From: Erwinia aphidicola
Lineage (GTDB): Bacteria > Pseudomonadota > Gammaproteobacteria > Enterobacterales > Enterobacteriaceae
Length of the DNA: 64,000 nt
Reading direction: 5' to 3'
Assembly (NCBI RefSeq): GCF_014773485.1
Contig: NZ_JACXBP010000002.1
Coordinates: 62,001 to 126,000 of the forward strand
Part shown: in pieces, positions 7,424 through 34,615 of the stretch
Layout: every line of letters begins with the position of its first letter
Numbering within the stretch: the stretch's first letter is position 1
Translations under genes and position numbers: made by a program
Notes under the pieces: model-generated
What the model was told of the DNA's origin: nothing
What the model saw: the letters and a program-made list of their open reading frames with translations, nothing else
Databases searched by the model: none

Positions 7424-8218
7424 ATGAAACCGACTACCGTCTCGACCTTACGCCAGTGGAAGCAGCAGGGGCACAAATTCGCCACCATCACCGCCTATGA
7501 TTACAGCTTTGCCCGCCTGTTTGCCGATGAGGGTATTCAGGTCATGCTGGTGGGTGACTCTCTTGGCATGGTGGTTCAGGGCCACGACTCCACGCTGCCG
7601 GTCACGGTTGCCGATATCGCTTACCACACGCAAACCGTGCGCCGTGGCGCCCCCGCTGCGCTGCTGCTCGCTGACCTACCGTTTATGAGCTACGCCACGC
7701 CACAGCAGACCTTTGACAGCGCCGCGACGCTGATGCGCGCCGGGGCCAACATGGTGAAGCTGGAGGGCGGCAAGTGGCTGGCGGAAACGGTGCAACAGTT
7801 AACCGAACGCGCGGTGCCGGTGTGTGGCCACCTCGGGCTGACGCCGCAGTCGGTGAATGTTTTTGGCGGGTACAAAGTGCAGGGTCGTGAAAGCGCCGAT
7901 GCCGAGCGCCTGCTGGAAGATGCACTGGCGCTGGAAGCAGCAGGCATACAGCTGCTGGTGCTGGAGTGCGTGCCGGTTTCGCTGGCAAAACGCGTGACCG
8001 AGGCGCTGGCCATCCCGGTGATTGGCATTGGCGCGGGCAGCGTCACCGACGGTCAGATACTGGTGATGCACGACGCCTTTGGCATTACCGGCGGTCACAT
8101 TCCTAAATTTGCCAAAAACTTCCTCGCTGAGGCCGGAGAGATCCGCGCCGCAGTGCGTCAGTATGTAGCAGAAGTTGAAGCCGGAAGTTATCCGGCCGCT
8201 GAACACAGTTTCCAGTAA
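7424..8218 (+). CDS. panB: Ketopantoate hydroxymethyltransferase PanB
   Basis: First committed step of pantothenate synthesis: transfers a hydroxymethyl group from methylene-tetrahydrofolate to 2-oxoisovalerate. 264 residues from ATG 7424 (MKPTTVSTL), which follows ACGGGGATCTG; an upstream ATG at 7406 adds six unconserved residues. Metal ligands are in VGDSLGM, ADLPFM and KLEGG; the catalytic Glu is in LVLECVP near residue 181. First gene of the panB-panC-panD group. Confidence 0.97.
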
Positions 8219-14441: not shown

Positions 14442-14445
14442 AGGC

Positions 14446-14465
14446 GGGCGAGGCATGCCTCGCCC
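14446..14465. terminator. Perfect palindrome after the PLP enzyme gene
   Basis: GGGCGAGGCATGCCTCGCCC is fully self-complementary and is followed by CTACAAAGG. It sits 5 bases after the upstream stop codon. The same palindrome type recurs at 25194. It could act as a terminator or be a dispersed repeat; there is no T-run. Confidence 0.5.
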
Positions 14466-14493
14466 CTACAAAGGCAAGGAGATGTTTTCGTAG

Positions 14494-14519
14494 GGGACGA
14501 CCTTTTTTCCGGTCGTCCC
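14494..14519. terminator. Hairpin between the convergent PLP enzyme gene and cueO
   Basis: A 9-bp perfect stem (GGGACGACC with its complement) around a T-rich loop, next to GTAGGGG. It lies between the convergent 3' ends, so it may serve both genes. Related in edge sequence to the hairpin at 9547. Confidence 0.55.
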
Positions 14520-14540
14520 GTTTAGCTGGCACCCTCGGGC

Positions 14541-16145
14541 TTAAGCCACGGTAAACCCGAGCATCATCCCGGTATCTTCGTGCTCCAGCAGATGGCAGTG
14601 CGCCATATAGGCCTGGTCTGGCGTGGCCTGATGGTTAAACCGGACCAGCACTTCGCTGCGCCAGCCCTCAACGCGCACCGTGTCCTTCCAGCCGCTGCGG
14701 TGCGGCGCGGGCGGTTTACCGTTTTCTGACAAAATGCGGAACTGGGTACCGTGAATGTGGAACGGATGCAGCATCTGATCGCCTTCGCCCGAGAGGGTCC
14801 ACTTCTCATACGCGCCCTGCTTCACTTCGAACGAGGGTTTATCCATGTTGAACGCCACGCCGTTAATCTGATTTCCCTGGTGGAAGTCATAAGCTTTCGG
14901 CGTTTTGGCATGGTCCATTCCCGCCATCTCGCCGTGATCCATCCCCGACATCGCCATCTGCGGCTTAGCGTCCGCTTTGTCGCTGTCGTGCGCATCCATA
15001 CTCATGCCCGCCATCGACGCATGGCCGTATTTCTCCATCAGCGCCAGCATGCCGCGACGGTCCAGCTCAGGGTCCATCATCAGCTGTAGCCAGCGCGTAT
15101 TGGCGCCCTGCGCAGCAGGCACGGCAGGCATCTCAACCAGCCTATCCGGCAGCGTGCCGCTGGCCTGCACCTGCAGCGGCGCAATCGACAGTACCGGCAG
15201 CGGCTGGTTAAACGGCGGTAGCGTCATCCCCATCTGGCGCACCGGCAGCGTTTGCAGGTCGAACGGCTTGCCATCGGTGGTATCGACCAGCACTTCGAAG
15301 CGCTCGCCCGGCATCATCGGCAGCTCGCTAACCTGCACGGGTTCACCCAGCAGCCCGCCATCGCTGGCAATCACATACATCGGGCGCTTATCGCTGGTGG
15401 TGATATTCAGCGAGCGGGCGTTACAGCCGTTGAGCAGGCGCAGGCGCAACCAGCCGCGCGGCACGCCCGCCTGCGGGTAAATCGCCCCGTTAGTCAGCAT
15501 GGTGTCGCCAAACCAGCCGACGGCGGCACTCATGATATCCAGCTGATAGTCGATCTGGCTGCCGTCAGCGGTTAGCCGTTTGTCCTGCAGGATCACCGGA
15601 ATATCATCAATGCCCCACTGCTTTGGCAGCAGCAGCTCGCCGCTCTCCGGGTCGTTAATCAGCACCAGCCCGGCCAGCCCTTGCGCCACCTGATAACCGG
15701 TACGGCCATGCTGGTGCGGGTGGAACCAGCAGGTCGCAGCAGGTTGGTCCGGGGTAAAGGTCACGCGGCGGCTCTGGTTAGGCGCAATGCGCGCCTGGGG
15801 TCCGCCATCGACCTGGCCGGGCAGCTCCAGACCGTGCCAGTGCACCGTCGTCGCTTCCGGCAGGCGGTTATACACGGTGATGTTGACCTCTTTGCCACGC
15901 TCCAGCTGGATTGCCGGGCCAAGCAGAGCGCCATTATAGCCCCAGGTAGGGACATTTTTTCCGCGCCAGCTGCTGCTGCCCGCCTGCGCGATCAGGCTAA
16001 TTTCACTGCGAGCATCGGCAGTGAGTAATGAGGGGATCGGCAACAGCGGCCGCTGTTCCGCCGCCATCAGCGAGCGGCTCCACAGTGGCAGTGCGCTGGC
16101 AGCGCCCAGCGCGGCGCTTAATTTGAGAAAATCACGGCGTTGCAT
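14541..16145 (-). CDS. cueO: Multicopper oxidase CueO
   Basis: Periplasmic cuprous oxidase that protects against copper. 534 residues with a Tat signal ([15 protein letters not shown]; twin Arg at residues 3-4) and three cupredoxin domains. Copper ligands: [24 protein letters not shown] and the C-terminal [16 protein letters not shown] Met/His/Asp-rich insert ([27 protein letters not shown]) near residues 375-410 is the copper-sensing loop typical of CueO. Preceded by a MerR-type promoter. Confidence 0.97.
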
Positions 16146-19681: not shown

Positions 19682-22279
19682 TTAAACCGCAGTCTGGAAA
19701 ATCACGCCGTCAGCTTTGTCGGTGTACTGGCTCAACTGGTCAAAGTTCAGGTAACGGTAGGTATCCACCGCAGTTTTGTCCACCTGGTCCATGAACTTCA
19801 GGTACTCTTCCGGCGTTGGCAGTTTGCCCAGCAGAGACGCTACCGCAGACAGCTCGGCAGACGCCAGGAAGACGTTGGCACCGGTACCCAGACGGTTCGG
19901 GAAGTTACGCGTGGAGGTCGACACCACCGTTGCGCCATCTGCCACACGCGCCTGGTTACCCATGCACAGGGAACAGCCGGGGATCTCGATGCGCGCGCCG
20001 CTCTTACCGAACACGCTGTAGTAGCCCTCTTCAGTCAGCTGCGCCGCGTCCATCTTGGTTGGCGGAGCCACCCACAGACGGGTTGGCAGCTGGCCTTTGT
20101 GCGCATCCAGCAGCTTACCAGCCGCACGGAAGTGACCGATGTTGGTCATGCAGGAGCCAATAAACACTTCGTCAATCTTGGTGCCCTGCACGTCGGACAG
20201 CAGGCGGGCATCGTCCGGGTCGTTTGGCGCACAGAGAATTGGCTCTTTGATGTCGGCCAGATCGATTTCGATGACTGCCGCGTATTCCGCGTCAGCATCG
20301 CCTTCCATCAGCTGTGGATCCGCCAGCCATTTCTCCATGCCCTGGATACGGCGCTCGATGGTACGACGGTCGCCGTAGCCTTCAGAGATCATCCACTTCA
20401 GCAGCACGATGTTCGAGTTGAGATACTCGATGATCGGGTCTTTGCCCAGCTTGATGCTACAGCCCGCTGCAGAGCGCTCTGCCGAAGCATCGGACAGTTC
20501 GAATGCCTGCTCAACTTTCAGGTCAGGCAGACCTTCAATTTCGAGGATGCGGCCAGAGAAGATGTTTTTCTTACCTTTCTTCTCAACGGTCAGCAGGCCA
20601 GCTTTGATCGCATACAGCGGGATCGCGTGTACCAGATCGCGCAGGGTGATGCCAGGCTGCATTTTGCCTTTGAAGCGCACCAGCACCGACTCTGGCATAT
20701 CCAGCGGCATAACGCCGGTTGCCGCAGCAAACGCCACCAGGCCAGAACCCGCCGGGAAGGAGATGCCAATAGGGAAACGGGTGTGCGAGTCACCGCCCGT
20801 ACCGACGGTATCCGGCAGCAGCATACGGTTCAGCCAGCTGTGGATAATGCCGTCGCCAGGGCGCAGCGATACACCACCACGGTTCATAATGAAGTCAGGC
20901 AGAGTGTGGTGCGTGGTCACGTCCACCGGCTTCGGATAGGCCGCGGTGTGGCAGAAGGACTGCATCACCAGGTCCGCAGAGAAGCCCAGGCAGGCAAGAT
21001 CTTTCAGCTCATCACGGGTCATTGGACCGGTGGTATCCTGCGAGCCAACCGAGGTCATTTTCGGTTCGCAGTAGGCACCAGGGCGCACGCCGTCAACGCC
21101 ACAGGCGCGGCCAACCATTTTCTGCGCCAGGGAGAAGCCACGGGTGCTGGCCGCCACGTCTTTCGCCTGCTCAAACACGTCGCTGTGCGGCAGACCGAGA
21201 GATTCACGCGCTTTGGTGGTCAGGCCACGGCCGATAATCAGTGGAATACGGCCACCCGCACGCACTTCATCCAGCAGCACGTTGGTTTTCAGTTCGAAAT
21301 TAGCCAGCACTTCACCGGTTTCGTGATTGCGCACTTCGCCTTTGTAGGGATAGATGTCGATCACATCGCCCATATTCAGACGGTCAACGTCCACTTCGAT
21401 CGGCAGTGCGCCGGCATCTTCCATGGTGTTGAAGAAGATCGGCGCGATTTTACCGCCGAGGCAGACGCCGCCGCCCTTCTTGTTTGGCACGTAAGGGATA
21501 TCGTCACCCATAAACCACAGCACCGAGTTGGTGGCGGATTTACGTGAAGAACCGGTACCGACCACGTCACCTACGTAAGTCAGCGGGAAGCCTTTTTGCT
21601 GCAGGGCTTCAATCTGTTTGATCGGGCCAACGTTACCGGCATCATCGGGTTCGATGCCTTCACGGGCGTTTTTCAACATCGCTAACGCGTGCAGTGGAAT
21701 ATCCGGGCGCGACCAGGCATCCGGCGCCGGAGAGAGGTCGTCGGTATTGGTTTCGCCGGTCACTTTGAACACGGTTACGGTGATTTTTTCTGCCAGTTTC
21801 GGACGCTTCAGGAACCATTCGGCGTCAGCCCAGGACTGAATAATTTTCTTCGCGTGAGGGTTGCCCGCTTTGGATTTTTCTTCAACGTCATAGAAGTTGT
21901 CGAACATCAGCAGCGTGTGGGACAGGGCTTCAGCGGCAATTGGCGCCAGCTTTTCATCGTCAAGCGCTTCGATCAGCGCATGGATGTTATAACCGCCCTG
22001 CATGGTGCCCAGCAGCTCAACGGCTTTTTCAGGAGTAACCAGAGGAGAAGTCGCTTCGCCTTTCGCGACAGCAGCCAGGAAACCGGCTTTAACATACGCC
22101 GCTTCATCTACGCCCGGCGGCACTCGGTTAATTAACAGGTCTAACAGAAACTCTTCTTCACCCGCTGGAGGGGCTTTTAGCAGTTCAACCAGCGCGGCCA
22201 TTTGGGAAGCATCTAACGGTTTAGGAACAATCCCCTGGGCAGCACGCTCGGCAACGTGCTTACGGTATTCTTCTAGCAC
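19682..22279 (-). CDS. acnB: Aconitate hydratase B
   Basis: Main TCA-cycle aconitase, isomerising citrate and isocitrate via a [4Fe-4S] cluster; also interconverts 2-methylaconitate in related pathways. 865 residues, the E. coli AcnB length. N-terminal HEAT-like domain ([17 protein letters not shown]), then the swivel domain before the catalytic domains, as in AcnB. Cluster ligands are the Cys in FIGSCMTN near residue 710 and the pair in CSLCMGN near residue 770; DSHTRFPIG and [11 protein letters not shown] are active-site blocks. A 650-residue frame on the opposite strand is a shadow. Confidence 0.98.
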
Positions 22280-23075
22280 GACGTTCTCCTCACTCTCATT
22301 GTATTTGGCATCCCGGGCTACCTAAGTCACCGCGAAGTGAAAACAATCCGTGTGTAGGGTAAGGTGCCCGGTTTCGCGAGTGGCAGCATAGCAGGATTCG
22401 GCCTGCATGTTAATCTGTTTACAAAAAAGCAACATCAGCTTGCTGCTGCTTCACGCGGCCATAAACAGCCCTTTGCAGCGCTTTTCACTACCTTTTCAGG
22501 CTAGTTTTGGCAATCTCACTGCGACAGCGATTAAAAAACCGCATATCTCCCGCACAGTCATCTCCCATCAGAGCCTGTGGAAATAATTTCAGCTTATTTA
22601 TCAGATGATTTTGATAACTTATGGGGTGGGATTGGCGCGTTGGTCACTGGCGGGTTGCTTCGGATGTAATGTTGATGACTTGCGTCACTCACCAGCAGAG
22701 CAACAATCGTTAAAATCCGCAGACTCTAAGACAGAATTTTCTAAGCTGCCTGTACGGCAGTGAATTGTTTAGTCATGGCAGCATTGCGTCAAAGCCACTA
22801 TCACTGAGCTAAGGAGTCGTGAATTGGCATGAACTCAAAGCAGCCTACGTGATAGTGGGTAAATTTTTTTATGCAGAATATGCTACACACGAGCCTTTGC
22901 TTGCGCGACAAACTGATCCAACGCTGCACGTGAGAGAAAACAAGTAGAGCTATTTTTCTCTGGCAGGGAAGCAGGCTGGCGCGTCATACGATGCTTGGCA
23001 AAGCGCTGTGGATTTCTTTGATTAAAGTGGCGTTGTGCATGGTGGTGGGCAGCAGATCGCCGCCCCGCCGTTTAC
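22280..23075. other. 796-bp intergenic region at the edge of an accessory island
   Basis: Holds the acnB upstream region (right of 22279) and one degenerate CRISPR-like repeat at 22738. No intact gene is visible. A minus-strand frame without a clear start ends at 22885 (TAG); its tail reads PEKNSSTCFLSRAALDQFVAQAKARV in two blocks and may be the remnant of a lost gene. I cannot assign it. Composition becomes more AT-rich from about 22.5 kb. Confidence 0.5.
22738..22765 (-). CRISPR. Solitary degenerate type I-F CRISPR repeat
   Basis: 28 bases that read, on the minus strand, as a type I-F repeat: the ACTGCCGTACAGGCAGCTTA core is intact and only the terminal base next to it differs (T for C on the plus strand). 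The flank on its 22737 side shares 17 of 20 bases with the spacer-like segment of the second locus (24948-24967). Only one copy, no array and no cas genes near it. Confidence 0.7.
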
Positions 23076-23462
23076 TCAACTGGCTATATCGTCAAAAAAG
23101 GTTCTGTCGGTCGTAATATGCGTAGGCGGACATAAAAAGATAAATTCCATGTCGGTGAGCGCTATCAGCTGATGCGCAGTACCTGGATAGATGCAAAATA
23201 CCGAACCTGAATTTATCGGGTCCGAACGGGTATTTTTCACCGTATGATTGTCACTATCTCCAGTCCATATCTTCCCCTGGCCCGACATAATAATATACCA
23301 CTCTTCTCCCTCGCTGTGACTGTGGCACGTCACTCGCTTTCCTTTTGCTAATGAGGTGCCGTAGGCACACAGCCCATTCTTGATGACCATCTCCGTAATT
23401 GAAATCCCTGCCAGCTGATCCTTTTCCGCACGATCAATATTAAAATTTGATATTAAAATCAC
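23076..23462 (-). CDS. Small cupin-domain protein
   Basis: 128 residues forming one cupin barrel. Cupin motif 1 is CHSHSEGEEWYIIMSGQGKIW (blocks CHSHSEGEEW and IIMSGQG, residues about 46-65), giving His/His/Glu metal ligands; motif 2 is PGTAHQLIAL near residue 95. GTG start after AAGGAGCTAAAC. No enzymatic domain is attached, so it could be a small metal- or ligand-binding enzyme or sensor. It is divergent from the PAS-LuxR gene, with 151 bp between them, so a shared control region is plausible. AT-rich codon use differs from the core genes. Confidence 0.75.
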   Translation of the reverse strand: MILISNFNIDRAEKDQLAGISITEMVIKNGLCAYGTSLAKGKRVTCHSHSEGEEWYIIMSGQGKIWTGDSDNHTVKNTRSDPINSGSVFCIYPGTAHQLIALTDMEFIFLCPPTHITTDRTFFDDIAS

Positions 23463-23613
23463 GTTTAGCTCCTTTTTTTTACAATTCAGAGTAACTTTTA
23501 CCCTATAAAAACTGCACTATAAACAATCTAATTACCTACACTCATAACATGGACATGTAAAAGATAATGTGCAAAAAATATTAAAATGGATAAATTACTA
23601 CAAGGGAAACAGA

Positions 23614-24306
23614 ATGAAAGATATTTATAAACTGAGAGCCAGCGTCAATAATATGATTAGATTCTGGGAGATAAGTCAGGAACCATGGGGAGCGAAAGAC
23701 GCCACATCAACGTTTATCTATGCAAACAGTGCTTATTGTAGATTACTTGGATTACCTGAAGGTTACGACGTAGCCGGCAGAAAGGATGGCGAGTTGCCGG
23801 CATCAACAGCGTGCTTCCAGGAACAATTTCAGGCACATGACCGTAAAGTTGAAGCAATGCAGGATCGCGTCACGTCAATAGAAATTCATCCATTTGAAAA
23901 ACATGACTGGCTACAACCCTGGTATTTTGACAAATATCCCTTGTTTGATGATGTGGGATTATGCTGTGGAACTATTTTTCATGGCCGCCCCGTAGATGCA
24001 CTGGTGTTAACCAGCCTTGAAAGCATTCAAATCCCAACATCACTCGTATTTACTCCCCCATCAGAGCTGTTTACAACCAGTGAATGGGATTTGATTTTTT
24101 ATGTCATCCATGGTTTTACAGGTAAAGAGATATCAAACAAACTATGCCTGTCCAAAAGAACCATAGAAAACAGAATGCGGGTCATCCATAGCAAAGCCAA
24201 TGTAAATAATAAGCGCGCATTCCTGGACTACTGCTTCCAGCATAATTTCAATAGTTACATCCCACAGAATTTCTTTCAAAAGCCTGAATCAAAAGTGGGA
24301 AAATGA
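23614..24306 (+). CDS. PAS-LuxR family transcriptional regulator
   Basis: 230 residues. N-terminal PAS-like sensor domain (residues about 10-120, with TFIYANSAYCRLLGLPEGYDVAGRKDGELP) and a C-terminal LuxR/GerE helix-turn-helix (FTTSEWDLIFYVIHGFTGKEISNKLCLSKRTIENR in two adjoining blocks, about 155-195). Start ATG 23614 follows AAGGGAAACAG; a GTG at 23569 would add 15 residues. No acyl-homoserine-lactone domain and no response-regulator receiver. Ligand unknown. It most likely controls the divergent cupin gene or neighbouring cargo; this is inferred from position only. Confidence 0.8.
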   Translation: MKDIYKLRASVNNMIRFWEISQEPWGAKDATSTFIYANSAYCRLLGLPEGYDVAGRKDGELPASTACFQEQFQAHDRKVEAMQDRVTSIEIHPFEKHDWLQPWYFDKYPLFDDVGLCCGTIFHGRPVDALVLTSLESIQIPTSLVFTPPSELFTTSEWDLIFYVIHGFTGKEISNKLCLSKRTIENRMRVIHSKANVNNKRAFLDYCFQHNFNSYIPQNFFQKPESKVGK

Positions 24307-24381
24307 ACCAAAAAAACCTTCTAACACATGATTACAAGAAAAACATAAAATCTAATAAACCCGAATAAAAAGGTTGAGATC

Positions 24382-24657
24382 ATGAATCGAAATAAAACCA
24401 AAACTAGCATTAACACTCCAGACTGGCACAGGGCGCAAATCCAGTGCGCACTCAGAATGAAAGGCTATTCTTTAGCACAGTTATCTCGCGAGTACGGTTT
24501 ATCATCCGGTACGCTGGCAAATGCTTTATCAAAACCATGGCTGAAGGGTGAGTTAATTATTGCTATGAAAATCGGGATTCCGCCAGAAAAAATCTGGCCA
24601 TCGCGGTATTATGATGACGAAAAACCAGTCAAAAGAATATTAAGAAAAGTATATTAG
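24382..24657 (+). CDS. Ner/Nlp-family DNA-binding protein
   Basis: 91-residue helix-turn-helix protein resembling Ner of phage Mu and the chromosomal SfsB/Nlp proteins: DWHRAQIQCALRMKGYSLAQL (in two blocks), SREYGLSSGTLANALSKPW, and PPEKIWPSRYYDD. Such proteins act as small repressors or activators, often of prophage origin. Start ATG follows AAAGGTTGAGATC. No other phage gene is visible nearby. It follows the PAS-LuxR gene by 75 bp on the same strand. Confidence 0.8.
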   Translation: MNRNKTKTSINTPDWHRAQIQCALRMKGYSLAQLSREYGLSSGTLANALSKPWLKGELIIAMKIGIPPEKIWPSRYYDDEKPVKRILRKVY

Positions 24658-24721
24658 CAGTGTTTTCAGCATACGTTTTTTTATCAATGCACAAAGCTCA
24701 TTATTGCTAAAATTATTCTGA

Positions 24722-24913
24722 TCAGTCCTCCAGCATAATGCCTGGCAATCGCTTAAACTCCCGCGTGTTATTAGTCACCAGAATAGCACCGACGGCAATG
24801 GCCGTATCGTTAGGATCAATCGGCGTACCGGCGGTACTCAATGGCATCTTAATGTCTGTGGTGACATCAACCGCCCTTCGATCCCAGGGCAGTATGCATC
24901 CAGGCGGGAGCAA
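24722..24913 (-). pseudogene. Truncated vapC-type PIN toxin remnant
   Basis: Only the C-terminal part of a VapC (PIN ribonuclease) remains: LPWDRRAVDVTTDIK, AGTPIDPNDTAIA, GAILVTNNTREFKRLPGIMLED. The N-terminal part with the first catalytic Asp is missing, and about five residues after NDTAIA, usually present in VapC, are deleted. No vapB antitoxin is seen. The 5' break point lies within 10 bases of a CRISPR-like repeat. It cannot encode an active toxin. Confidence 0.75.
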
Positions 24914-24919
24914 CTCTGT

Positions 24920-24995
24920 TTTCTAAGCTGCCTGTACGGCAGTGAACTGCAGACTTTACGACAGAATTTTCTAAGCTGCCTGCTCGGCAGTGAAC
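24920..24995 (-). CRISPR. Two type I-F-like CRISPR repeats with one 20-base spacer
   Basis: Two 28-base repeats (24920-24947 and 24968-24995) in the same orientation; on the minus strand both begin GTTCACTGCCG and end CAGCTTAGAAA. The first matches the type I-F repeat known from Yersinia and Pectobacterium; the second differs by two bases in the middle. The 20-base segment between them is shorter than the usual 32-base I-F spacer and resembles the flank of the solitary repeat at 22738 (17 of 20). No cas gene lies in the window, so this is an orphan or decayed array. Confidence 0.75.
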
Positions 24996-25193
24996 GGTTG
25001 GCAAACCACTCTAACTCGTTATAAACATTATTCAATTGCTGCACTCCTGGTAAAAAACCCTTTTTTAAAGCTGTTCGATTAGATCGTTTAAAATCAAAAA
25101 GTTATCGAGGTGACAAAAAAGAGGGTCGTGCGGTTTTCAATAACGTACAGATCATTAAGAGTGACAGTGGATGAGATAAGCCTCTAAACACCA

Positions 25194-25213
25194 GGTCGAG
25201 GCATGCCTCGACC
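25194..25213. repeat. Perfect 20-bp intergenic palindrome
   Basis: GGTCGAGGCATGCCTCGACC, followed by CTACCC. Same palindrome type as at 14446. It sits in the roughly 370-bp stretch between the CRISPR-like repeats and the crotonase gene, where I see no gene. Confidence 0.5.
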
Positions 25214-25364
25214 CTACCCTCGACTTTAAATACTTAGTTTTTTTCAGCAGAAGGATCTTTTTGCTTTAAAACTTCAACCTCGCGAACTCGCGCGTCGTAA
25301 GCTTGCTAAAAAAATGGATAGGCATAAAGCTACACTCTTCGCCCTCAGACAGTCACGGTAAGCC

Positions 25365-26150
25365 ATGATGAATAGCCAACAACCGAACACGCAGCTGGTG
25401 CGCTGCGACCGCCCGATTGCCCACGTGGCGCGCCTGACGCTTAACCGCCCCGCCGCCAGCAATGCCTACAACGCGGTGATGGTAGCCGAGCTGGAAGCGT
25501 GCCTGAGCTGGTGCGAGCAGCAGCCGGATATCCGCACGGTGATCCTCACCGGCAGCGGTACGGTATTCTGCGGCGGTGCCGATTTGCAGGAAGCATTCAC
25601 CGATGGCGGCAAAGGGCTGATGAACTCTCACGGTGGCTATAACCCGTTGCAGCACCTGCCCCGGCGCAAAATCTGGATTGCCGCGCTTAACGGTCATGCC
25701 TTCGGCGGCGGGCTGGAGCTGGCGCTGGAGTGCGATTTTATTATCGCGGCGCAGCAGGTGAAAATCGCACTGCCGGAAGTGAAGCACGGGCTGCTGCCGC
25801 TCGGTGGCGCGATCGGCCAGCTGGCCACGCGGCTGCCTGCCAGCGTGGCGCGTGAGATGCTGCTGATCGGCGAACCGATGGACGCACAGCGGGCACTGGC
25901 GCTGGGGCTGTTTTATCAGCTGGCGGAGGCGGAAGAGCTGATGGAGAGCGCGCTGGCGCTGGCGGCCCGCCTAAACCGCAACGCGCCGCTGGCGGTTCAG
26001 GCCTGCAACGCGCTGTTGAGAGAGACTCTCGCTGAGGATCTGCGCCAGCGCAGCGCTGAAGAGTTACAGCAGCTGCAAAGCAGCCTCGACTATCAGGAAG
26101 GCCTGCACGCCTTTGCTGAGCGGCGCGCCCCGCAGTGGCGCGGAAAGTAG
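25365..26150 (+). CDS. Enoyl-CoA hydratase/isomerase (crotonase) family protein
   Basis: 261 residues of the crotonase fold: LTLNRPAASNAYNAVM near residue 25, oxyanion-hole region GTVFCGGADLQEAF near residue 65, and the second oxyanion block NGHAFGGGLELALECDF near residue 108. Proteins of this fold hydrate, isomerise or cleave CoA thioesters. The Glu expected in the hydratase catalytic position after the GGG block region (LPEVKHGLLPLGGAIGQLATRLP, in two blocks) is hard to assign; substrate unknown. It is convergent with the thiolase-like gene, the two stops being 2 bases apart. Part of an acyl-thioester gene cluster. Confidence 0.85.
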   Translation: MMNSQQPNTQLVRCDRPIAHVARLTLNRPAASNAYNAVMVAELEACLSWCEQQPDIRTVILTGSGTVFCGGADLQEAFTDGGKGLMNSHGGYNPLQHLPRRKIWIAALNGHAFGGGLELALECDFIIAAQQVKIALPEVKHGLLPLGGAIGQLATRLPASVAREMLLIGEPMDAQRALALGLFYQLAEAEELMESALALAARLNRNAPLAVQACNALLRETLAEDLRQRSAEELQQLQSSLDYQEGLHAFAERRAPQWRGK

Positions 26151-26152
26151 GA

Positions 26153-27352
26153 TTACAGCTGCACCGCCTGAAACAGCGCGCTTAGCCCTAATCCACCGGC
26201 GATGCCGAGCATCGCCAGCCCGTAGCCACTCCCCTGCTGTTTGCCGACCAGCTGGTTGAACAGGCGCGTCACCATAATGGCACCGGAAGCGCCGTAAGGG
26301 TGGCCGAGGGCGATCGCCCCGCCCTGCAAATTAATGCGCTGCTCATCAATGCCCAGCGCGTCCACCGAACCCAGTACCTGCGCGGCGAAGGCCTCGTTAA
26401 ACTCAATCACGGGTATAGCATCCAGCGTCAGCTGCGGCTGGCGCGCCAGTAGCTTTTGCGTGGCGGGCACCGGGCCGAGGCCCAGCAGGTTCGGGTCAAC
26501 GCCCGCACTACAGGCATCGGCAAACAGCAGCCCCTCGCTAAAACCGCACTCGCGCGCTTTGCGGCGGCTCATCACCAGCAGCAGCGAAGCGCCGTCATTT
26601 AGCGGGCAGCAGTTGCCTGCGGTCACCGTGCCGTTGGCGGCGAAAACCGGGGAAAGTGCCGCCAGCCGCTCAAGGGAGGTGCCGGGGCGCGGGCACTCAT
26701 CGCTGGCTATCTGCTGGCCGTTCACGCTGAGCGCCACGATTTCGGCGGCAAATGCGCCCTGCTGCTGTGCGGCGACGGCGCGCTGATGGCTGCGCAGGGC
26801 AAACTGGTCCTGACGCTGGCGGCCGATGCCGCAGTGCTGCGCGACATTTTCGGCGGCGATGCCCATCTCCGGGTCTCCCACCTCCTCCGGCGAGAAGCGC
26901 GCACGGCCATAAAAGCGCGGCATCTGCTTCAGAGAGCCGGGTTTCTCCACCCGCCACGGCGCGGTGCTGACGCTCTCAACGCCACCGGCCAGGTAGCATT
27001 CGCCGGCCTGCGCCTGCACCAGACGGCAGGCGTTGATCACCGCCTCCAGCCCCGAGCCGCACTGGCGGTCAACCGTTACCGCCGGAACCGCCAGCGGAAG
27101 CCCTGCCGCCAGCGCCGCCAGGCGGGCAATGTTGCCACCGCCGCCGGTAGCATTGCCGATAATCACCTCGTCGATGGCGCTGAAATTTTCCGGCAGCGTC
27201 GCCAGAAGATGGGTAAACAGCGGTGCCAGCAGCGCTTCCATTGGCAGGCTGGCCAGTGCGCCATAAGCTCTGCCTATCGGCGTGCGGCACGCGGCGACAA
27301 TCACCGGTTGGCTGTCACTCTGCGGCTGATAGTTCAGTAAGCTCTGCGGCAT
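26153..27352 (-). CDS. Thiolase-family protein lacking the C-terminal catalytic Cys
   Basis: 399 residues. The acylated Cys is present in VDRQCGSGLEAV near residue 90, NEAFA near 320 and the catalytic His in GGAIALGHPYGASG near 350. The usual C-terminal CIGGG motif, with the second catalytic Cys, reads LGIAGGLG instead: that Cys is Gly. So normal thiolysis or Claisen condensation may be impaired or changed. ATG 27352 is preferred over TTG 27361 for ribosome-site spacing (GAGG). Its start overlaps the end of the ligase gene by 38 bases, so they are translationally coupled. Confidence 0.85.
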   Translation of the reverse strand: MPQSLLNYQPQSDSQPVIVAACRTPIGRAYGALASLPMEALLAPLFTHLLATLPENFSAIDEVIIGNATGGGGNIARLAALAAGLPLAVPAVTVDRQCGSGLEAVINACRLVQAQAGECYLAGGVESVSTAPWRVEKPGSLKQMPRFYGRARFSPEEVGDPEMGIAAENVAQHCGIGRQRQDQFALRSHQRAVAAQQQGAFAAEIVALSVNGQQIASDECPRPGTSLERLAALSPVFAANGTVTAGNCCPLNDGASLLLVMSRRKARECGFSEGLLFADACSAGVDPNLLGLGPVPATQKLLARQPQLTLDAIPVIEFNEAFAAQVLGSVDALGIDEQRINLQGGAIALGHPYGASGAIMVTRLFNQLVGKQQGSGYGLAMLGIAGGLGLSALFQAVQL

Positions 27353-28820
27353 GGCCTGCAATCCTCTTTTCCAGCTCGTTACGTTTTATCTTGCCGCTTG
27401 GCGTCAGCGGCCAGCGGGTAATGCGGTAATAGTGGCGCGGGCGCTTATATTTTGCCAGAAGCTCCCGGCACTTGCCTGCCAGCTGGCGGCAGGCGTCGTC
27501 ATCGGCTTCAACAACCGCTACCAGCTTTTTGCCGAGGTAGTCATCATCAACGGCGATCACCACCGCCTCAATCATTCCCGGCAGCGATTTAATCACCGAC
27601 TCGATTTCGGAGAGGTAGATATTATTACCGCCGCTGAGGATCATATTTCCCCGGCGGCCAATCACCGTTAAGCGCTGACGCGGGTCGAGATAACCAATAT
27701 CGGCCACCGTCGCCATATGACCCTGCTTTACAAAGGCAGTGCCGTCATCGCCCCATAAATACCCTTCGATCAGCTGCTCGCTGCTGAGCCAGATGGTGCC
27801 GGGCTGGCCGGCGGGCAGTAATTTACCGTCGTCATCACGGATGGTGATTTCGGTGCCGGGAAAAGCAGACCCGACGTTGGCCAGCGAGTCGCAGATGTTG
27901 TCGTCATCCAGCGTCGAGACCGCAATAAATCCCAGCTCGGAAGCGCCGTAATACTCCTGCATGCGCGCCGCCGGAAACAGCGCGCGCGCCTGGCGATAGT
28001 GGTTCAGCTCCAGCTTGGCCCCGGCGCTCAGCAGGCTGCGCAGGTCGGGGAATTCTGCCCCGGCGCTGACGCGGGCGAACCCGGCGATCATCGTCGGCAC
28101 CAGCACGATGCGCGCAATTTTTTCCGCAGCGATCAGGGCCAGCGCCGCCGCAGGCTGCCACTGTCCAAGGCTATAAAAGGTGCCCCCGGCATACAGCGTC
28201 TCATTCAGGCAGTAGAGGCCAATGCCGTGCGACAGCGGGCCGGGAAAAAGGGTTGACGGCGCTGCGGCCAGCTGGAAAATCGCCTCGCCGTTTTCAAAGC
28301 TGCAGCGCCACGAGCGGCGCGAGCGGATAAAGGCTTTTGGCAGGCTGGTGGTGCCGGAGGTGAAGTTGATCAGAAACGGCGTTGGCGCCTGCATCTGGGC
28401 ACAAAACTCCCCCTCCTCCAGCGCTTGGTCGGCGGGCTGCCAGCTGTCCACCGCCAGCCAGCGGATCGCAAGCTGCTCCGCCACGGCGATCAGCTGATGG
28501 TCCTGCTGTTTCAGCAGCAGCAGGCCGGGCGCCAGGCGGCTCAGCATATCGCGCAGCTGCTCAAGCGGGGCCTGCGGGTCGATAATCGCGGCGGTGTAGG
28601 GATGCGCGGTGGCGGCAAGCCAGGCGACGGGAAAAGCAAGGTGGTTACCGGTGGCAATCGCCACAGTGCCGGATGCATTCGGCTGCTGGCGCAGATGCTG
28701 ATACAGTGCGAGGCCGCGCTGCCACAGCTGCTGCCAGCTCAGCGTCTGGCCATCGATGCTGACGGCGGTTTTATTCGGGGTGTTGTTCGCGTGCCGCTTA
28801 ACCCTGTCGTGGACCGGCAT
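27315..28820 (-). CDS. AMP-dependent acyl-CoA synthetase/ligase
   Basis: 501-residue class I adenylate-forming enzyme, expected to activate a carboxylic acid as acyl-AMP and then a thioester. Motifs: NFTSGTTSLPKAF (A3) near residue 153, YYGASELGF (A5) near 285, TVADIGYLD and RRGNMILSGGNNIYLSEIE (A7-A8) near 380-405, and the catalytic Lys in LTPSGKIKRNE near 478. Substrate not readable. It starts five bases after the thioesterase stop and overlaps the thiolase-like gene: one three-gene operon. ATG follows TGAGGCAG. Confidence 0.9.
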   Translation of the reverse strand: MPVHDRVKRHANNTPNKTAVSIDGQTLSWQQLWQRGLALYQHLRQQPNASGTVAIATGNHLAFPVAWLAATAHPYTAAIIDPQAPLEQLRDMLSRLAPGLLLLKQQDHQLIAVAEQLAIRWLAVDSWQPADQALEEGEFCAQMQAPTPFLINFTSGTTSLPKAFIRSRRSWRCSFENGEAIFQLAAAPSTLFPGPLSHGIGLYCLNETLYAGGTFYSLGQWQPAAALALIAAEKIARIVLVPTMIAGFARVSAGAEFPDLRSLLSAGAKLELNHYRQARALFPAARMQEYYGASELGFIAVSTLDDDNICDSLANVGSAFPGTEITIRDDDGKLLPAGQPGTIWLSSEQLIEGYLWGDDGTAFVKQGHMATVADIGYLDPRQRLTVIGRRGNMILSGGNNIYLSEIESVIKSLPGMIEAVVIAVDDDYLGKKLVAVVEADDDACRQLAGKCRELLAKYKRPRHYYRITRWPLTPSGKIKRNELEKRIAGHAAELTELSAAE

Positions 28821-28825
28821 CTGCC

Positions 28826-29257
28826 TCAGGCCTCGCTGACGGGGAAATAGCGGGTTAACGCCTGGCGCGTTTCATCGGGAATGCGGCAGGGTTTATGGTC
28901 GGTGAGGTCGACACAGACCCAGACTAATTTGCCGAGCGCGGCGGGAATGTTTTTTCCCTGTAGCATCAGCTGGATGCTAAACGTCAGGCTGCTGTTGCCG
29001 AGCTTCTCAATCGTCACCTGCGGGGCCACCACATCATCCACCGACAGCGGATGCAGAAAAGTGGCTTCGCATTTTTTAACGTGATACACCACGCCCGCAC
29101 TGTCGGGGCGAAACAGCGGCAGAATATCCGCACGGCGAAAAGCATTCACTACCGCGTCTTCGCAGTAGTCCAGATAGACGGAATTATGCACGTGGCCGTT
29201 GAAATCAATGTCGCGCATTGATACGCGAAATGTTTCGCTATTATACTGATCCTGCAT
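28826..29257 (-). CDS. Hotdog-fold acyl-CoA thioesterase (YbgC/FadM type)
   Basis: 143 residues of the 4-hydroxybenzoyl-CoA thioesterase-like family: FRVSMRDIDFNGHVHNSVYLDYCEDAV (in two blocks) carries the catalytic Asp and the HVHN loop near residues 14-25; C-terminal VWVCVDLTDHKPCRIP. Likely releases a free acid from a thioester. Start ambiguous between ATG 29257 (MQDQYN) and ATG 29266. First gene of the thioesterase-ligase-thiolase operon, divergent from the enoyl reductase with under 50 bp between, so the two promoters must overlap. Confidence 0.8.
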   Translation of the reverse strand: MQDQYNSETFRVSMRDIDFNGHVHNSVYLDYCEDAVVNAFRRADILPLFRPDSAGVVYHVKKCEATFLHPLSVDDVVAPQVTIEKLGNSSLTFSIQLMLQGKNIPAALGKLVWVCVDLTDHKPCRIPDETRQALTRYFPVSEA

Positions 29258-29303
29258 AAAAATCATTAACCTGTAAACCGGACAACACTGAAGAAAATAT
29301 ACC

Positions 29304-30290
29304 ATGAAAGAGACTTTATTCACCAGAGCGGTGGTCCGGGAGTTCGGCAACATCAGCGACGTTGTGCAGCTGGAGCAGTGCGCATTAGCTCCGTTAGCGG
29401 CGGGTCACGTGCGGGTCAGAATGCGCTACGCCACGATTAATCCCTCCGATATTATTACCATTTCCGGCGCATACCGTTCACGCATCGCCCTGCCGTTCGT
29501 GCCGGGTTTTGAAGGCACCGGCACAGTCAGTGAGAGCCATGACGACACGCTGGCCGTCGGTCAGCGCGTGCTGCCGGTCGGCAGTATGGGCGCGTGGCAG
29601 ACCTGGAAAGAGAGCGAGCCGCAGTGGTGCTTCACCCTGCCCGACTACGTCACTGACCAGCAGGCGGCGACCAGCTACGTCAACCCGATGACCGCGCTGC
29701 TGATGCTGACAGAGGAGCTGCAGTTTACCCCGGGGATGCGCATCATCATTAACGCCGCCAACTCCGCGATTGGCAAAATGCTGATCCGCATCGCCAACCA
29801 TATGGGGCTGGAGCCGATTGTTATCGTGCGGCGGGCGCAGAACCTCGGCCTGTTCGCGGGTTATGCTACCGGGCAGGTGATTAACAGCAGCGCGGCGGAT
29901 TATGCGCAGAAGCTGGCGGCGATTGCGCGCAGCGGCGGCGCGGCGGCGATCCTCGACTGCATTGGCGGTGACGAATCGCTGACGCTGGCGCAGGCGCTGG
30001 CACCCGGCGGGCAGTTTATCCATTACGGCCTGCTCTCCGGCCAGCCCATTCCGCCTGCGTTCTGGCGCAGTCGCCCGGACATTCGCTTTTCCAATTTCCA
30101 TCTGCGCCTGTGGGTGCATAACCATGAGAAAGCGCTGGTGCAGCGCCGGATCAACGAGGTGATGGCGCTTATCCGCGACGGGGTGATCGCCACCGAAATT
30201 GTGGCGGAGTTCGCGCTGGAAGAGATTGATCAAGCGGTAAAAGCGGTGCAGTCGGGGGAGTTGCAGGGCAAGATTTTATTGCGCATGTAG
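29304..30290 (+). CDS. MDR-family 2-enoyl thioester reductase-like oxidoreductase
   Basis: 328 residues, medium-chain dehydrogenase/reductase without zinc-binding Cys. N-terminal GroES-like domain (ATINPSDIITISGAY near residue 45), then YVNPMTALLMLTEE near 130 and a Rossmann domain with INAANSAIGKMLIRIA near 150. This layout fits the MECR/ETR group, which reduces trans-2-enoyl thioesters with NADPH, or quinone oxidoreductase relatives. Divergent from the thioesterase operon, so probably part of the same pathway. Confidence 0.8.
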   Translation: MKETLFTRAVVREFGNISDVVQLEQCALAPLAAGHVRVRMRYATINPSDIITISGAYRSRIALPFVPGFEGTGTVSESHDDTLAVGQRVLPVGSMGAWQTWKESEPQWCFTLPDYVTDQQAATSYVNPMTALLMLTEELQFTPGMRIIINAANSAIGKMLIRIANHMGLEPIVIVRRAQNLGLFAGYATGQVINSSAADYAQKLAAIARSGGAAAILDCIGGDESLTLAQALAPGGQFIHYGLLSGQPIPPAFWRSRPDIRFSNFHLRLWVHNHEKALVQRRINEVMALIRDGVIATEIVAEFALEEIDQAVKAVQSGELQGKILLRM

Positions 30291-30300
30291 CGTCAGAAAC

Positions 30301-30327
30301 GGGCCGACCGAACAAGAGGGTCGGCCC
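30301..30327. terminator. Hairpin between the reductase gene and bioY
   Basis: 9-bp perfect stem GGGCCGACC with its complement around a 9-base loop, followed by CCTATG. Lies between convergent gene ends. Same TAGGGG/GGCCC-type edge as the hairpins at 9547 and 19120. Confidence 0.6.
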
Positions 30328-30344
30328 CTATGCAGGTGTCGGGC

Positions 30345-30884
30345 TTATTCCAGGGTCGGATAGGCCCGGCGCACGGCGCGCACAATCAGCACCGCCAGCA
30401 CCACTTTAACGATATCCCCCGGCAGGAAGCCGAGAGAACCCAGCGCCGCCTGCTTAAGCGGCAGCCCCGCCACCAGCGCAATCCACGGAATACCCGCCGA
30501 GTAGATCAGCACCACGCCGCCCAGCGTCAGGAACAGCAGCTCTTTCACCAGCGTTAGCGATCGCAGATTACGCTGATACAGCCAGCCTGTCAGCAGTGCC
30601 GCCAGCGGCCACGAGAGGATAAATCCGCCGCTGGTGCCGAGGAAAACGCCAAGGCCACCGCGCCCACCGGCCAGCAGCGGCAGGCCAATTGCCACCAGCA
30701 GTACAAACAGCGCCAGCGCCAGCGCGCCGCGTTTGGCTCCGGCAATCGCTCCGGCCAGCATCGGGCCTAGCGTCTGGGCGGTGATCGGTACCGCAATCAC
30801 CGGCAGGCTGAAGGCCGGGAACAGGCCCAGCGCGGCGGTGATCGCAGCAAACAGCGCGATATACACAATATCTCGGGTCGACAT
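30345..30884 (-). CDS. bioY: Biotin transporter substrate-binding subunit BioY
   Basis: 179-residue S component of an ECF transporter. About six membrane segments; the BioY family signature includes VIAVPITAQTLGPMLAGAIAG (two blocks, near residue 32) and GFLPGDIVKVVLAV near residue 152. Binds biotin and docks on the T and A subunits. Its start overlaps the bioN stop by one base. Last gene of the SDR-bioM-bioN-bioY operon. Confidence 0.92.
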   Translation of the reverse strand: MSTRDIVYIALFAAITAALGLFPAFSLPVIAVPITAQTLGPMLAGAIAGAKRGALALALFVLLVAIGLPLLAGGRGGLGVFLGTSGGFILSWPLAALLTGWLYQRNLRSLTLVKELLFLTLGGVVLIYSAGIPWIALVAGLPLKQAALGSLGFLPGDIVKVVLAVLIVRAVRRAYPTLE

Positions 30885-31525
30885 TACTCTCTCACTTTTT
30901 CAGCATCGCTGCGCTCACGGCGCAGCTGGGGGTCCCAGGCGCGGGCTTCCAGCGCGGCGGCAATATCATCGGCCATCTTCAGGGTACGCACAATCACCGG
31001 GATCGCCACCGCCAGCACGCTGCGATCCAGCCCGCGCGCCTTTTGCGCTTCGCGCACTTCGGCGGTGATCCCCGCCAGCACCGGAATAAAACGCAGCGCC
31101 AGCGACAGCGCCAGGCTGACTTTGGCCGGGTTGATGCGCAGGAAGCGCAGCCAGGACAGGCCTTTCTCCAGCGCGTCGATCATCTCTGAAGTGCGGGTGG
31201 TGAGCGTCACCAGCGCCGCCATCAGCATCAGCGCCGCCAGGCGGGCAATCACCAGCACCCCGGACTGCCAGCTGACCATCCACCACTGCACGGCAAACAG
31301 CAGCACCAGCACCCACAGCAGCGGCTTCAGCTGCAGCAGCATAATACGCAGGCTGATGCGTGCCAGCGGATAGAGCAGCATCACCACCAGCAGCGCGCCA
31401 AGCGTCGCATCCAGGCGCGGGAAGACAAACAGCAGCGTGCCGAGGATCGCCAGCGTGAGGATCTTGATGCCCGGCGGCAAACGGTGCAGCGGGGAATGAC
31501 CCGGAATATAGTCGCTCAGCGTCAT
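30884..31525 (-). CDS. bioN: ECF transporter transmembrane subunit BioN (EcfT/CbiQ family)
   Basis: 213-residue T component. Several membrane segments and the two Ala-Arg coupling motifs typical of EcfT near the C-terminus: EAQKARGLD and ALEARAWD (residues about 165 and 195), which touch the ATPase. Start overlaps the bioM stop (ATGA). With BioM and BioY it forms a dedicated biotin importer, as in rhizobial bioMNY. Confidence 0.9.
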
Positions 31526-32196
31526 GACATCAACCTGACGTACTCTTTCAGCGCCACGGCGGGCACATCGTCAATCACCACTTTGCCGTGGTCGAACACC
31601 AGCACGCGCTCGAAATCCTGCAAAAACTCCAGATCGTGCGAGACCACAATAGCGGTCTGCTCGAGGTCGGCAATCGCCTGGGCAATCCGGCGCTTGTTGC
31701 GCAGATCCAGCAGCGTCGTCGGCTCATCAAACACGATGTACTCCGGCGCCATCACCAGCACGCCGGAGATCGCCAGCAGCTGTTTCTGACCGCCGCTCAG
31801 CAGGTGCGCCGGATGCTGGCGAAACGCCTGCATATCGTAGCGCGCCAGTGCGGCATCGCTGCGCTCGCGGATCACGGCTTTCGACAGGCCAAGATTTTTC
31901 ATCCCGAAGGCGAGATCTTCCTCCACCACCGGAAAAACAATCTGATTATCCGGGTTCTGGAAAACAAAGCCGACTTTGCGCCGCACCGCTTTACCGTGCT
32001 GACGGGTGTTGAGGCCGTCGACCAGCACCTCGCCCTGCTTCGGCAGCAGCAGGCCATTCAGCAGGCGGACAAAGGTGCTTTTACCGCAGCCGTTGCTGCC
32101 GACGATGCCGATGCGTTTTTCCGTCAGCTGCAGATTGATATTGTCGAGTACCGTGCGCTCACCGTAAGCGTGCGATACCCCTTTCAGTTCCAGCAT
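31522..32196 (-). CDS. bioM: ECF transporter ATP-binding subunit BioM
   Basis: 224-residue ABC ATPase. Walker A is [11 protein letters not shown] near residue 34, Q-loop [13 protein letters not shown], signature [12 protein letters not shown] near 128, and Walker [11 protein letters not shown] near 150. The QNPDNQI block is typical of ECF ATPases. ATG 32196 follows CAGGAGACTT; a longer reading to 32244 would overlap the SDR gene. It starts 13 bases after the SDR stop. Confidence 0.92.
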
Positions 32197-32209
32197 GAAG
32201 TCTCCTGGC

Positions 32210-32914
32210 TCAGGCGGGTTTGCGCGGGCGATACTGGCGGCCAATGGTCAGCTGCTCGACCACGGCGGCAGGCGACAGCGACATAACGAAATCGACGGCG
32301 CGGCAGATATCTTCGCTGCTCAGCATCTCGTCCGGCGTCAGTCCTGAACCCTGCGCCATATCGGTATCCACCACGTCCGGGCACAGAGTAGTGACTTTAA
32401 TCCCCTGTGCGCCCAGCTCGCGGGCAATCGAGCGGCTGTAGCCGACCAGTGCATGTTTGCTGGCGGCATAGCTGGCGACGCTGCCGTAAGGCTGCACGCC
32501 GCTGACCGAAGCCAGATTAAAGATGCGCGCGTCCGGCGCACGCAGCAGCCACGGCGTACAGAGCTGGCACAGGTGATGAATGGCGGTGACATTGGTGGCC
32601 AGCATCGCGCTGAAGTCATCGACCGGGGTGCAGGTCGACCCGGCGCGGAAGATCCCGGCGGCGTTGATCAGGACATCAAGCTGCTGATGCTGGCTGAGTG
32701 CCTGCTGCACCTGCTGTGCAACGGCAGGATAGTCACAGACGTCGAGCGCCAGCGTCTGTAAGCGTGCGGGATCGCGCGTGGCGGCAAAGCTTGCCAGCGC
32801 CTGCGCATCACGCGCCAGTAGAATCAGATGATAGCCCTGCTCATAGAAATGGCGGGCAAGATGGTGACCGATACCGCGGGAGGCACCGGTAATCAGTGCG
32901 ACTTTGTTTAACAC
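32210..32914 (-). CDS. Short-chain dehydrogenase/reductase
   Basis: 234-residue classical SDR. Cofactor loop ITGASRGIG near residue 8, NAAG near 85, and the catalytic Ser and YAASK near 133-153. GTG start after AAAGGCGTGTT. Such enzymes often reduce 3-oxoacyl thioesters, but substrate is not readable; a Pro-rich DIAAAL-like substrate loop gives no clue. It is the first gene of the operon with bioMNY, an unusual partner for a biotin importer. Confidence 0.87.
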
Positions 32915-33003
32915 AACACGCCTTTTAGCTGGGCAGAAATTGCCTGCAAAGATACGCGAATTTTCGTCGCCCTGCGCGGATTTTTAGCGGGGTACAGTAA
33001 GCA

Positions 33004-33043: not shown

Positions 33044-34471
33044 TTATTTCTTTTTCGCTTTCGGGTTTGGCAGGTCGGTGATGCTGCCTTCGAAGATTTC
33101 CGCCGCCAGACCAACCGATTCGTGCAGGGTTGGGTGAGCGTGGATGGTCAGCGCCAGATCTTCAGCGTCACAACCCATCTCGATAGCCAGACCGATTTCA
33201 CCCAGCAGCTCGCCGCCGTTGGTGCCGACAATCGCACCACCGATCACGCGGTGAGTCTCTTTGTCGAAGATCAGTTTGGTCATGCCGTCTGCACAGTCGG
33301 AAGCGATAGCGCGGCCTGAAGCTGCCCACGGGAAGGTGGCGGTTTCATAGCTGATGCCTTTCTCTTTCGCTTCTTTCTCGGTCAGACCGACCCAGGCAAC
33401 TTCTGGCTCAGTGTAAGCAATCGATGGGATCACTTTCGGGTCGAAGTAGTGTTTCTTACCAGAAATCACTTCTGCCGCCACGTGGCCTTCATGCACGCCT
33501 TTGTGTGCCAGCATTGGCTGACCGACGATGTCGCCGATAGCAAAGATGTGCGGCACGTTGGTACGCATCTGCTTGTCGACGCGGATGAAACCACGGTCGT
33601 CCACTTCCACGCCCGCTTTGCCAGCATCCAGACCTTTACCGTTCGGTACGCGGCCAATCGCCACCAGCACCGCGTCGTAACGCTGTGGTTCTGCAGGGGC
33701 TTTTTTGCCTTCCATGGTCACGTAGATGCCGTCTTCTTTCGCTTCTACCGCGGTGACTTTGGTTTCCAGCATCAGGTTGAACTGCTTACCGATACGCTTA
33801 GTGAAGACTTTTACCACGTCTTTGTCGGCAGCCGGGATCACCTGATCAAACATTTCTACCACGTCAATCTGTGAGCCGAGCGCGTGATACACGGTGCCCA
33901 TCTCCAGACCGATGATACCGCCGCCCATGACCAGCAAACGCTCTGGCACTTCTTTCAGCTCCAGCGCATCGGTAGAGTCCCAAACGCGTGGGTCTTCGTG
34001 CGGAATGAATGGCAGCTGAATGGGACGGGAACCCGCCGCGATAATTGCGTTGTCGAAAGTGATCGTGGTGGTTTCACCCTTCTCATTTTCTACAACCAGA
34101 GTATTTGCACCGGTAAATTTACCCAGGCCGTTGACCACGTTCACTTTACGGCCTTTTGCCATGCCGGCCAGGCCACCGGTCAGCTGACCGATCACTTTCT
34201 CTTTCCAGCTGCGGATTTTATCAACATCGGTCTGCGGCTTGCCGAAGACGATACCGTGAGCTTCCAGCGCTTTGGCTTCTTCAATCACCTTCGCCACGTG
34301 CAGCAGGGCTTTAGAAGGGATACAGCCGACATTCAGACAGACACCACCCAGGGTGCTGTAACGCTCAACGATCACGGTCTCCAGACCTAAATCCGCTGCA
34401 CGGAAGGCTGCAGAGTAGCCTGCAGGACCTGCCCCAAGTACCACGACCTGAGTTTTAATTTCTGTACTCAT
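33044..34471 (-). CDS. lpdA: Dihydrolipoamide dehydrogenase Lpd
   Basis: FAD-containing E3 subunit shared by pyruvate dehydrogenase, 2-oxoglutarate dehydrogenase and the glycine cleavage system. FAD motif VVLGAGPAGYSAA near residue 9, redox disulfide GGVCLNVGCIPSKAL near 43, NAD motif GGGIIGLEMG near 180, and the C-terminal HAHPTLHES with the active-site His and Glu near 445. Start at the second of two ATGs (34471), which has better spacing from GAGG and matches E. coli. Confidence 0.97.
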   Translation of the reverse strand: MSTEIKTQVVVLGAGPAGYSAAFRAADLGLETVIVERYSTLGGVCLNVGCIPSKALLHVAKVIEEAKALEAHGIVFGKPQTDVDKIRSWKEKVIGQLTGGLAGMAKGRKVNVVNGLGKFTGANTLVVENEKGETTTITFDNAIIAAGSRPIQLPFIPHEDPRVWDSTDALELKEVPERLLVMGGGIIGLEMGTVYHALGSQIDVVEMFDQVIPAADKDVVKVFTKRIGKQFNLMLETKVTAVEAKEDGIYVTMEGKKAPAEPQRYDAVLVAIGRVPNGKGLDAGKAGVEVDDRGFIRVDKQMRTNVPHIFAIGDIVGQPMLAHKGVHEGHVAAEVISGKKHYFDPKVIPSIAYTEPEVAWVGLTEKEAKEKGISYETATFPWAASGRAIASDCADGMTKLIFDKETHRVIGGAIVGTNGGELLGEIGLAIEMGCDAEDLALTIHAHPTLHESVGLAAEIFEGSITDLPNPKAKKK

Positions 34472-34615
34472 CATGACCTCTTAATTGATTGTCCGGCGGG
34501 TCAGGGCTTTGAATTTGAACGTCCTTCTTCCACCGGGACGCGTTCACCGCAAGAGTTTACAGAATTGTTAATAAACTGCAAACCGCGGTGCCACGAATCA
34601 CTACAACATCTTACG

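Follow-up and report, generated by a model that had tools for sequence, protein, structure and literature searches.

The orphan type I-F arrays of Escherichia coli, CRISPR3/CRISPR4, carry 'anti-cas' spacers, directed at the cas genes that these stubs lack (Touchon and Rocha 2010, PMC2886076). Two competing ideas exist for these stubs: the spacers caused the loss of the cas operon, or they guard against its return. The discussion of the arrays in PMC2886076 proposes protection against incoming I-F systems and argues against spacers as the cause of operon loss. A passage of PMC8616872 leans to spacer-caused loss and, citing Almendros et al. 2016, states that these arrays cause interference against plasmids bearing I-F cas genes. 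Orphan I-F remnants have previously been described in Erwinia. CRR4 of Erwinia amylovora, with five or six spacers, is described as the remnant of an I-F system found in other Erwinia species, in a source whose protospacer table covers CRR1 and CRR2 only (PMC9004355). Orphan I-F arrays also occur in Serratia (PMC9981886).

The locus described here belongs to Erwinia aphidicola and was analyzed within a stretch of 64,000 nucleotides (the window). Its genome is a draft of 5.1 Mb in 25 contigs, with contamination given as 9.67, and the locus sits well within a 656-kb contig. Like the E. coli arrays, it is a cas-less I-F stub at the site of an I-F system, and both full-length spacers of another strain of the species (G003) match cas genes. 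Unlike them, it belongs to another genus, and the genes matched are csy1 and cas2/3 rather than the Cas1, Cas3 and Csy2 targets given for E. coli (PMC2886076). The window strain also differs in having no cas-matching spacers, only a single 20-nt spacer, against the five or six of CRR4. We consider it likely that this is what decay has left of one end of a type I-F CRISPR locus, now without cas genes, at a resident I-F site of the genus, and that it is probably inert. Coordinates of its components are collected in Table 1.

Table 1. Components of the CRISPR site and its surroundings, in window coordinates
Feature	Position	Strand	Remarks
acnB	19682..22279	-	left border of CRISPR site; orthologous DNA beside arrays in G005, G001 and others
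Copy of short spacer	22719..22737	-	adjoins solitary repeat; 2 changes in 19
Solitary type I-F repeat	22738..22765	-	1 mismatch to consensus; CRISPR-DR4 47.0 bits
Cupin protein	23076..23462	-	between solitary repeat and pair
PAS-LuxR type regulator	23569..24306	+	between solitary repeat and pair
HTH protein (Pfam HTH_35)	24382..24657	+	between solitary repeat and pair
3' fragment of vapC-type toxin gene	24711..24912	-	about 68-70% DNA match to annotated VapC genes; adjoins distal repeat
Type I-F repeat	24920..24947	-	0 mismatches to consensus GTTCACTGCCGTACAGGCAGCTTAGAAA; CRISPR-DR4 50.1 bits
20-nt spacer ATTCTGTCGTAAAGTCTGCA	24948..24967	-	in G003 with 1 change
Type I-F repeat, leader-proximal	24968..24995	-	2 mismatches to consensus, both in hairpin loop; CRISPR-DR4 45.4 bits
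I-F CRISPR leader	24996..25240, far end approximate	-	motif common to other arrays of the genus
Fragment of yhaV	25252..25328	-	89.6% over 77 bp to yhaV beside G003 array
lpd	33044..34474	-	right border of CRISPR site in G005 and G001

All three repeats in the window match the Rfam family CRISPR-DR4 (RF01317) at 45.4-50.1 bits (gathering score 35; E 4e-10 to 1e-8), and a five-pair stem is intact in each. An earlier interpretation made from the letters of the window alone (the sequence-only reading) was therefore right to see two 28-base type I-F units in the pair. The 15-base repeat core occurs with up to three mismatches at nine sites in the window, where 2.8 are expected and none of 100 shuffles has nine; only the three repeats among these sites are within two mismatches. 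A pattern search of the entire genome, allowing three mismatches, finds I-F repeats at these three sites only, and its backwards control has no matches. These counts bear on the idea that the units are a non-CRISPR dispersed or mobile repeat resembling I-F repeats by chance. The repeats do adjoin a broken vapC, and copies flank a small gene cluster. However, three genomic copies, a match to an Rfam CRISPR family, a leader, and the mostly 32-nt repeat spacing of congeners are not what a dispersed repeat predicts. This explanation is almost certainly wrong, and was rejected on the whole-genome count and the leader. The scattering of the motif over many genomic sites, which the sequence-only reading had named as evidence against itself, is not observed.

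The pair is separated by 20 nt, whereas the usual spacer length in the genus is 32 nt and the G003 locus has two spacers of that length. Both the short length and the resemblance of this segment to the flank of the solitary repeat had been noticed from the window, and both hold: the two sequences differ by two changes in the first 19 nt and by three over 20. The short spacer is present in both strains, and altered copies of it adjoin the outer repeats. Its length, near 20 nt, is therefore probably an old trait rather than the product of a recent local deletion. Three of the 37 genomes of the genus have I-F pairs whose exact repeat cores are separated by 16-26 nt. In a search of GTDB genomes, from which records close to the window's own genome may be missing, such pairs include L053 (the same genome as G030) and L052 among the matches listed. 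The L052 pair (L052:3115-3189, from an uncultured proteobacterium) has a 20-nt spacer, lies some 130 bases past a csy4-like gene (assigned by eye) and has an identical 15 bases after both repeats; it is possibly a regulatory mini-array.

On the minus strand, the window pair is arranged as leader, repeat, 20-nt spacer, repeat and vapC fragment. The leader motif TTTAAAAAAGGGTTTTTTAC is located at 25050-25069, and the AAAAAAGGGTTTT motif (A-rich/GGGTTTT) stands 70 nt before the first repeat. Among cas-positive genomes, G005 (both arrays), G015 and G016 have the same motif at -68 to -69; among orphan arrays, those of G003, G012, G013 and G024 have it at this distance. In the remaining arrays compared, some cas-positive ones included, it is degenerate or missed by the pattern. 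The pair is a real array end. The right flank was also considered as the start of vapC; this assignment was rejected, since the motif and an alignment of leader copies identify the sequence as leader. On the other side of the pair, the short open frame in the G003 copy of the vapC fragment has no Pfam match. The leader is absent from the sequence-only reading, and the G003 array is not visible from the window alone.

The window repeats lie between two genes that we take to be acnB and lpd. In this interval, G005 has two arrays flanking a complete I-F cas operon: an array of 16 repeats lies between acnB and the cas genes, and one of 17 repeats (with an additional degenerate repeat) lies between the cas genes and lpd. 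Cas1, Csy1, Csy3 and Csy4 of this operon were assigned by profiles, and the genes presumed to be cas2/3 and csy2 complete it. At the same site, G001 has two repeats and a more degenerate third 3.3 kb away, with no match to the Cas1 or Csy4 profile. The genus has another I-F site, whose counterpart in the window is 14436-14541. The arrays of G002 and G012 are located there, and DNA of this site borders the cas stretch in five of the eight cas-positive genomes whose flanks were examined (G015, G018, G020, G023 and G032). In the window strain this site is empty, with no repeat within eight mismatches.

Profiles for Cas1, Csy1, Csy3 and Csy4 have no match anywhere in the window strain genome. The statement, made for the window, that Cas1, Cas2/3 and Csy genes are missing thus extends to the genome for these four proteins; with the Csy1, Csy3 and Csy4 profiles, no csy cluster is found elsewhere. 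G003 has no match to the four profiles either. I-F repeats occur in 24 of the 37 genomes of the genus and Csy4 in ten, all of them among the 24, which therefore leaves 14 genomes that have I-F repeats without Csy4. Cas1 profile matches are more widespread (15/37). Five genomes have Cas1 without Csy4 (G002, G008, G011, G025 and G031), and three of these (G002, G008 and G025) are among the 14. One long orphan array, partly covered by the sequence examined, is that of G014 (L013), with 35 I-F repeat matches in the genome and no Csy4 or Cas1 match. The window strain has the repeats, the leader and the resident site, and gives no match to four Cas profiles. The leader, the full operon of a congener at this site and the four negative profiles support the orphan, decayed I-F locus that the sequence-only reading had offered as one of two possibilities.

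The array of G003 at this locus is larger than that of the window strain. It begins with leader copy 1, a repeat, genes for the PrlF antitoxin and YhaV toxin, and leader copy 2. An array of the form repeat-32-repeat-32-repeat-20-repeat follows, in which the 20-nt spacer is that of the window strain with one change. Beyond it are the vapC fragment, the HTH, LuxR-type and cupin genes, a partial, decayed leader accompanied by two degenerate repeats separated by 19 nt, and acnB. The PrlF/YhaV pair of G003 thus lies between two leader copies (L032:8149-8959), and the window strain retains a yhaV fragment only.

Window positions 24966-32951 and 23044-24996 align to G003 pieces about 1.5 kb apart. 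Both alignments extend into the repeat, an overlap expected at the junction of a repeat-to-repeat deletion. The strains are 97.9% and 93.0% identical on the two sides of this overlap (24966-24996). A crossover between the L032 repeats at 7956 and 9523 would remove 1567 bases. Most likely, the window strain lost G003-like spacers through such a deletion of about 1.6 kb, which would have included the PrlF/YhaV toxin-antitoxin pair. The opposite direction, a gain in G003, may also be entertained, being compatible with the alignment taken alone. The yhaV fragment of the window strain is also found in G003, next to leader copy 1. The duplication is thus probably older than both strains, and this favors loss in the window strain. 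That this strain once had the cas-matching spacers is inferred from one sister genome.

The unit of two repeats and 20-nt spacer is 98.7% identical between the strains (75/76), against 89.4% for the neighboring cupin gene. This identity and the nearly unchanged repeats and leader could reflect some constraint, 76 bases being too few to tell. The cluster at 23044-24700 as a whole is 89-99% identical to G003, compared with 98-99.7% for the outer flanks. Within it, the cupin and LuxR-type genes (92.7% identical for the latter) have diverged far more than the HTH gene (98.9%).

Both 32-nt spacers of G003 match I-F cas genes of other Erwinia genomes. The first matches csy1 of G010 at 27 of 32 positions, and in frame 2 it reads LKRSQQLWLD, the same as the G010 product. 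The second matches cas2/3 of G030 in antisense at 26 of 32 positions; its reverse complement reads KPGDYCAALW, compared with RPGEYCAALW in G030. Neither score is reached by any of 1,000 dinucleotide shuffles (maximum 24), and in a similar amount of non-cas DNA the two spacers score 22 and 20 at best. The third, 20-nt spacer of G003 has no match to cas genes beyond chance (14/20). The spacer of the window strain behaves likewise: its best score in cas regions is 15/20, which 362 of 1,000 shuffles equal or exceed and which non-cas DNA also provides. A mini-array with a job other than immunity, the second possibility of the sequence-only reading, thus finds no support in the strain's own spacer and gains indirect support from the spacers of G003.

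The scan that gave these matches was directed at 11 I-F cas stretches from ten genomes, all Erwinia, with arrays masked. Its queries came from 12 orphan genomes (52 spacers) and ten cas-positive genomes (127 spacers), restricted to lengths of 15-45 nt and taken mostly from 3-kb pieces that cover many arrays in part (for example, 23 spacers of G014 and one each of G007 and G023). G013 and G024, which complete the 14 orphan genomes, each have a single repeat in the stretch examined and contributed no spacers. For spacers of 31-33 nt, the maximum of the shuffled null is 23, at 150 shuffles per length. None of the 177 other spacers of the genus scores above 23. One spacer of G001 reaches this value, without a CC flank, and the six spacers shorter than 31 nt score 14-19, within the null for those lengths that have one (the length of 23 nt does not).

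The PAM expected for type I-F systems is CC. The cas2/3 match has CC on its 5' side in the five loci that score 22 or more, the best match included. These loci are not independent, because they represent one homologous place with conserved tryptophan codons, and four of the five do not exceed the null in score. Of the seven loci with the csy1 match, one (G030) has CC, and it is not the best match; the flanks elsewhere are TC (G010, G016), CG (G015, G018, G032) and TA (G007). The closest cas genes have 5-6 mismatches to the two spacers over 32 positions, and neither spacer has a match with three or fewer mismatches in 394 genomes of the order, a sample that holds two genomes of this genus, its own included, and does not contain G003. 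The source operon of these spacers is consequently unseen. On these comparisons, the two spacers look like the anti-cas spacers of cas-less E. coli, and G003 fits the E. coli pattern. The window strain would be what remains once cas-matching spacers of the G003 type are removed.

The cas2/3-matching spacer has no match to phages at E 1 and only partial matches to plasmids at E 10 (five records). The csy1-matching spacer has no match to plasmids at E 1 and only partial matches to phages at E 10 (eight records). The 20-nt spacer of the window strain was compared with host and viral DNA, as the sequence-only reading had advised. Among viral contigs, one (L059) matches its first 19 nt exactly, with a 5' flank of GCG rather than CC; the match is treated as chance, a judgment made without a computed expectation.

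Mini-arrays can also have regulatory roles linked to toxins, CreTA being a parallel. The 20-nt spacer could accordingly direct Cascade to a host or toxin promoter, in connection with the nearby toxin-antitoxin genes. Toxin genes do adjoin the arrays, a vapC fragment in both strains and PrlF/YhaV in G003, and the short spacer is common to several array copies. However, no Cascade genes were found with the Csy4, Csy3 and Csy1 profiles, and vapC is a fragment only. Outside the locus, the best match of the spacer in its own genome is two mismatches off, at one site, and two more matches have three mismatches, compared with two matches for the backwards control. Such a regulatory function is very improbable.

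Alternatively, the leader-driven pair could be maintained as a decoy RNA: its repeats would, like phage-encoded Racrs, bind Cas6f/Cas7f when an I-F system enters the cell. In the account given in PMC10651486, RacrIF1 acts through a single I-F repeat and sequesters Cas6f/Cas7f, and the likeness consists in the presence of few I-F repeats outside any cas locus. The stem is intact in both window repeats, alone and in the folded 84-nt transcript. However, Racrs are viral solitary repeats (PMC10651486), whereas this pair has a normal CRISPR leader and occupies a chromosomal site shared with the I-F loci of congeners, not a phage or mobile element. The host yields no I-F system to inhibit with the Cas1, Csy4, Csy3 and Csy1 profiles. 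The transcript does not fold better than expected by chance (z -1.34; 24 of 200 shuffles fold as well), and promoter-like sites show no excess (1 versus 1.2 in shuffles). We regard a decoy as improbable.

The decayed I-F locus remains the preferred explanation. In this scheme, the leader and two repeats with the old short spacer would have survived the disappearance of the cas operon, and unrelated genes (cupin, LuxR-type, HTH and broken vapC) now stand among the repeats. A G003-like ancestor may have carried spacers against I-F cas genes. These could either have driven the loss of its own operon or blocked the arrival of a new one, and the window strain would then have lost them when identical repeats recombined. 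The pair that remains is expected to be inactive today, because no effector genes (Cas6f, Cascade) were found and it has no credible target.

Taken alone, the window strain would represent ordinary decay. A wider proposal, which we consider unlikely, is that a leader-driven, cas-less I-F array is maintained in the species to prevent the acquisition of I-F CRISPR-Cas systems, by anti-cas spacers in G003-like strains and by decoy repeat RNA in strains like that of the window. If this were true, anti-cas orphan arrays would have arisen in a second genus and could decay into decoys. A second genus with the E. coli signature, and with the operon of a congener at the same site, would provide an independent comparison for the question of operon loss versus guard.
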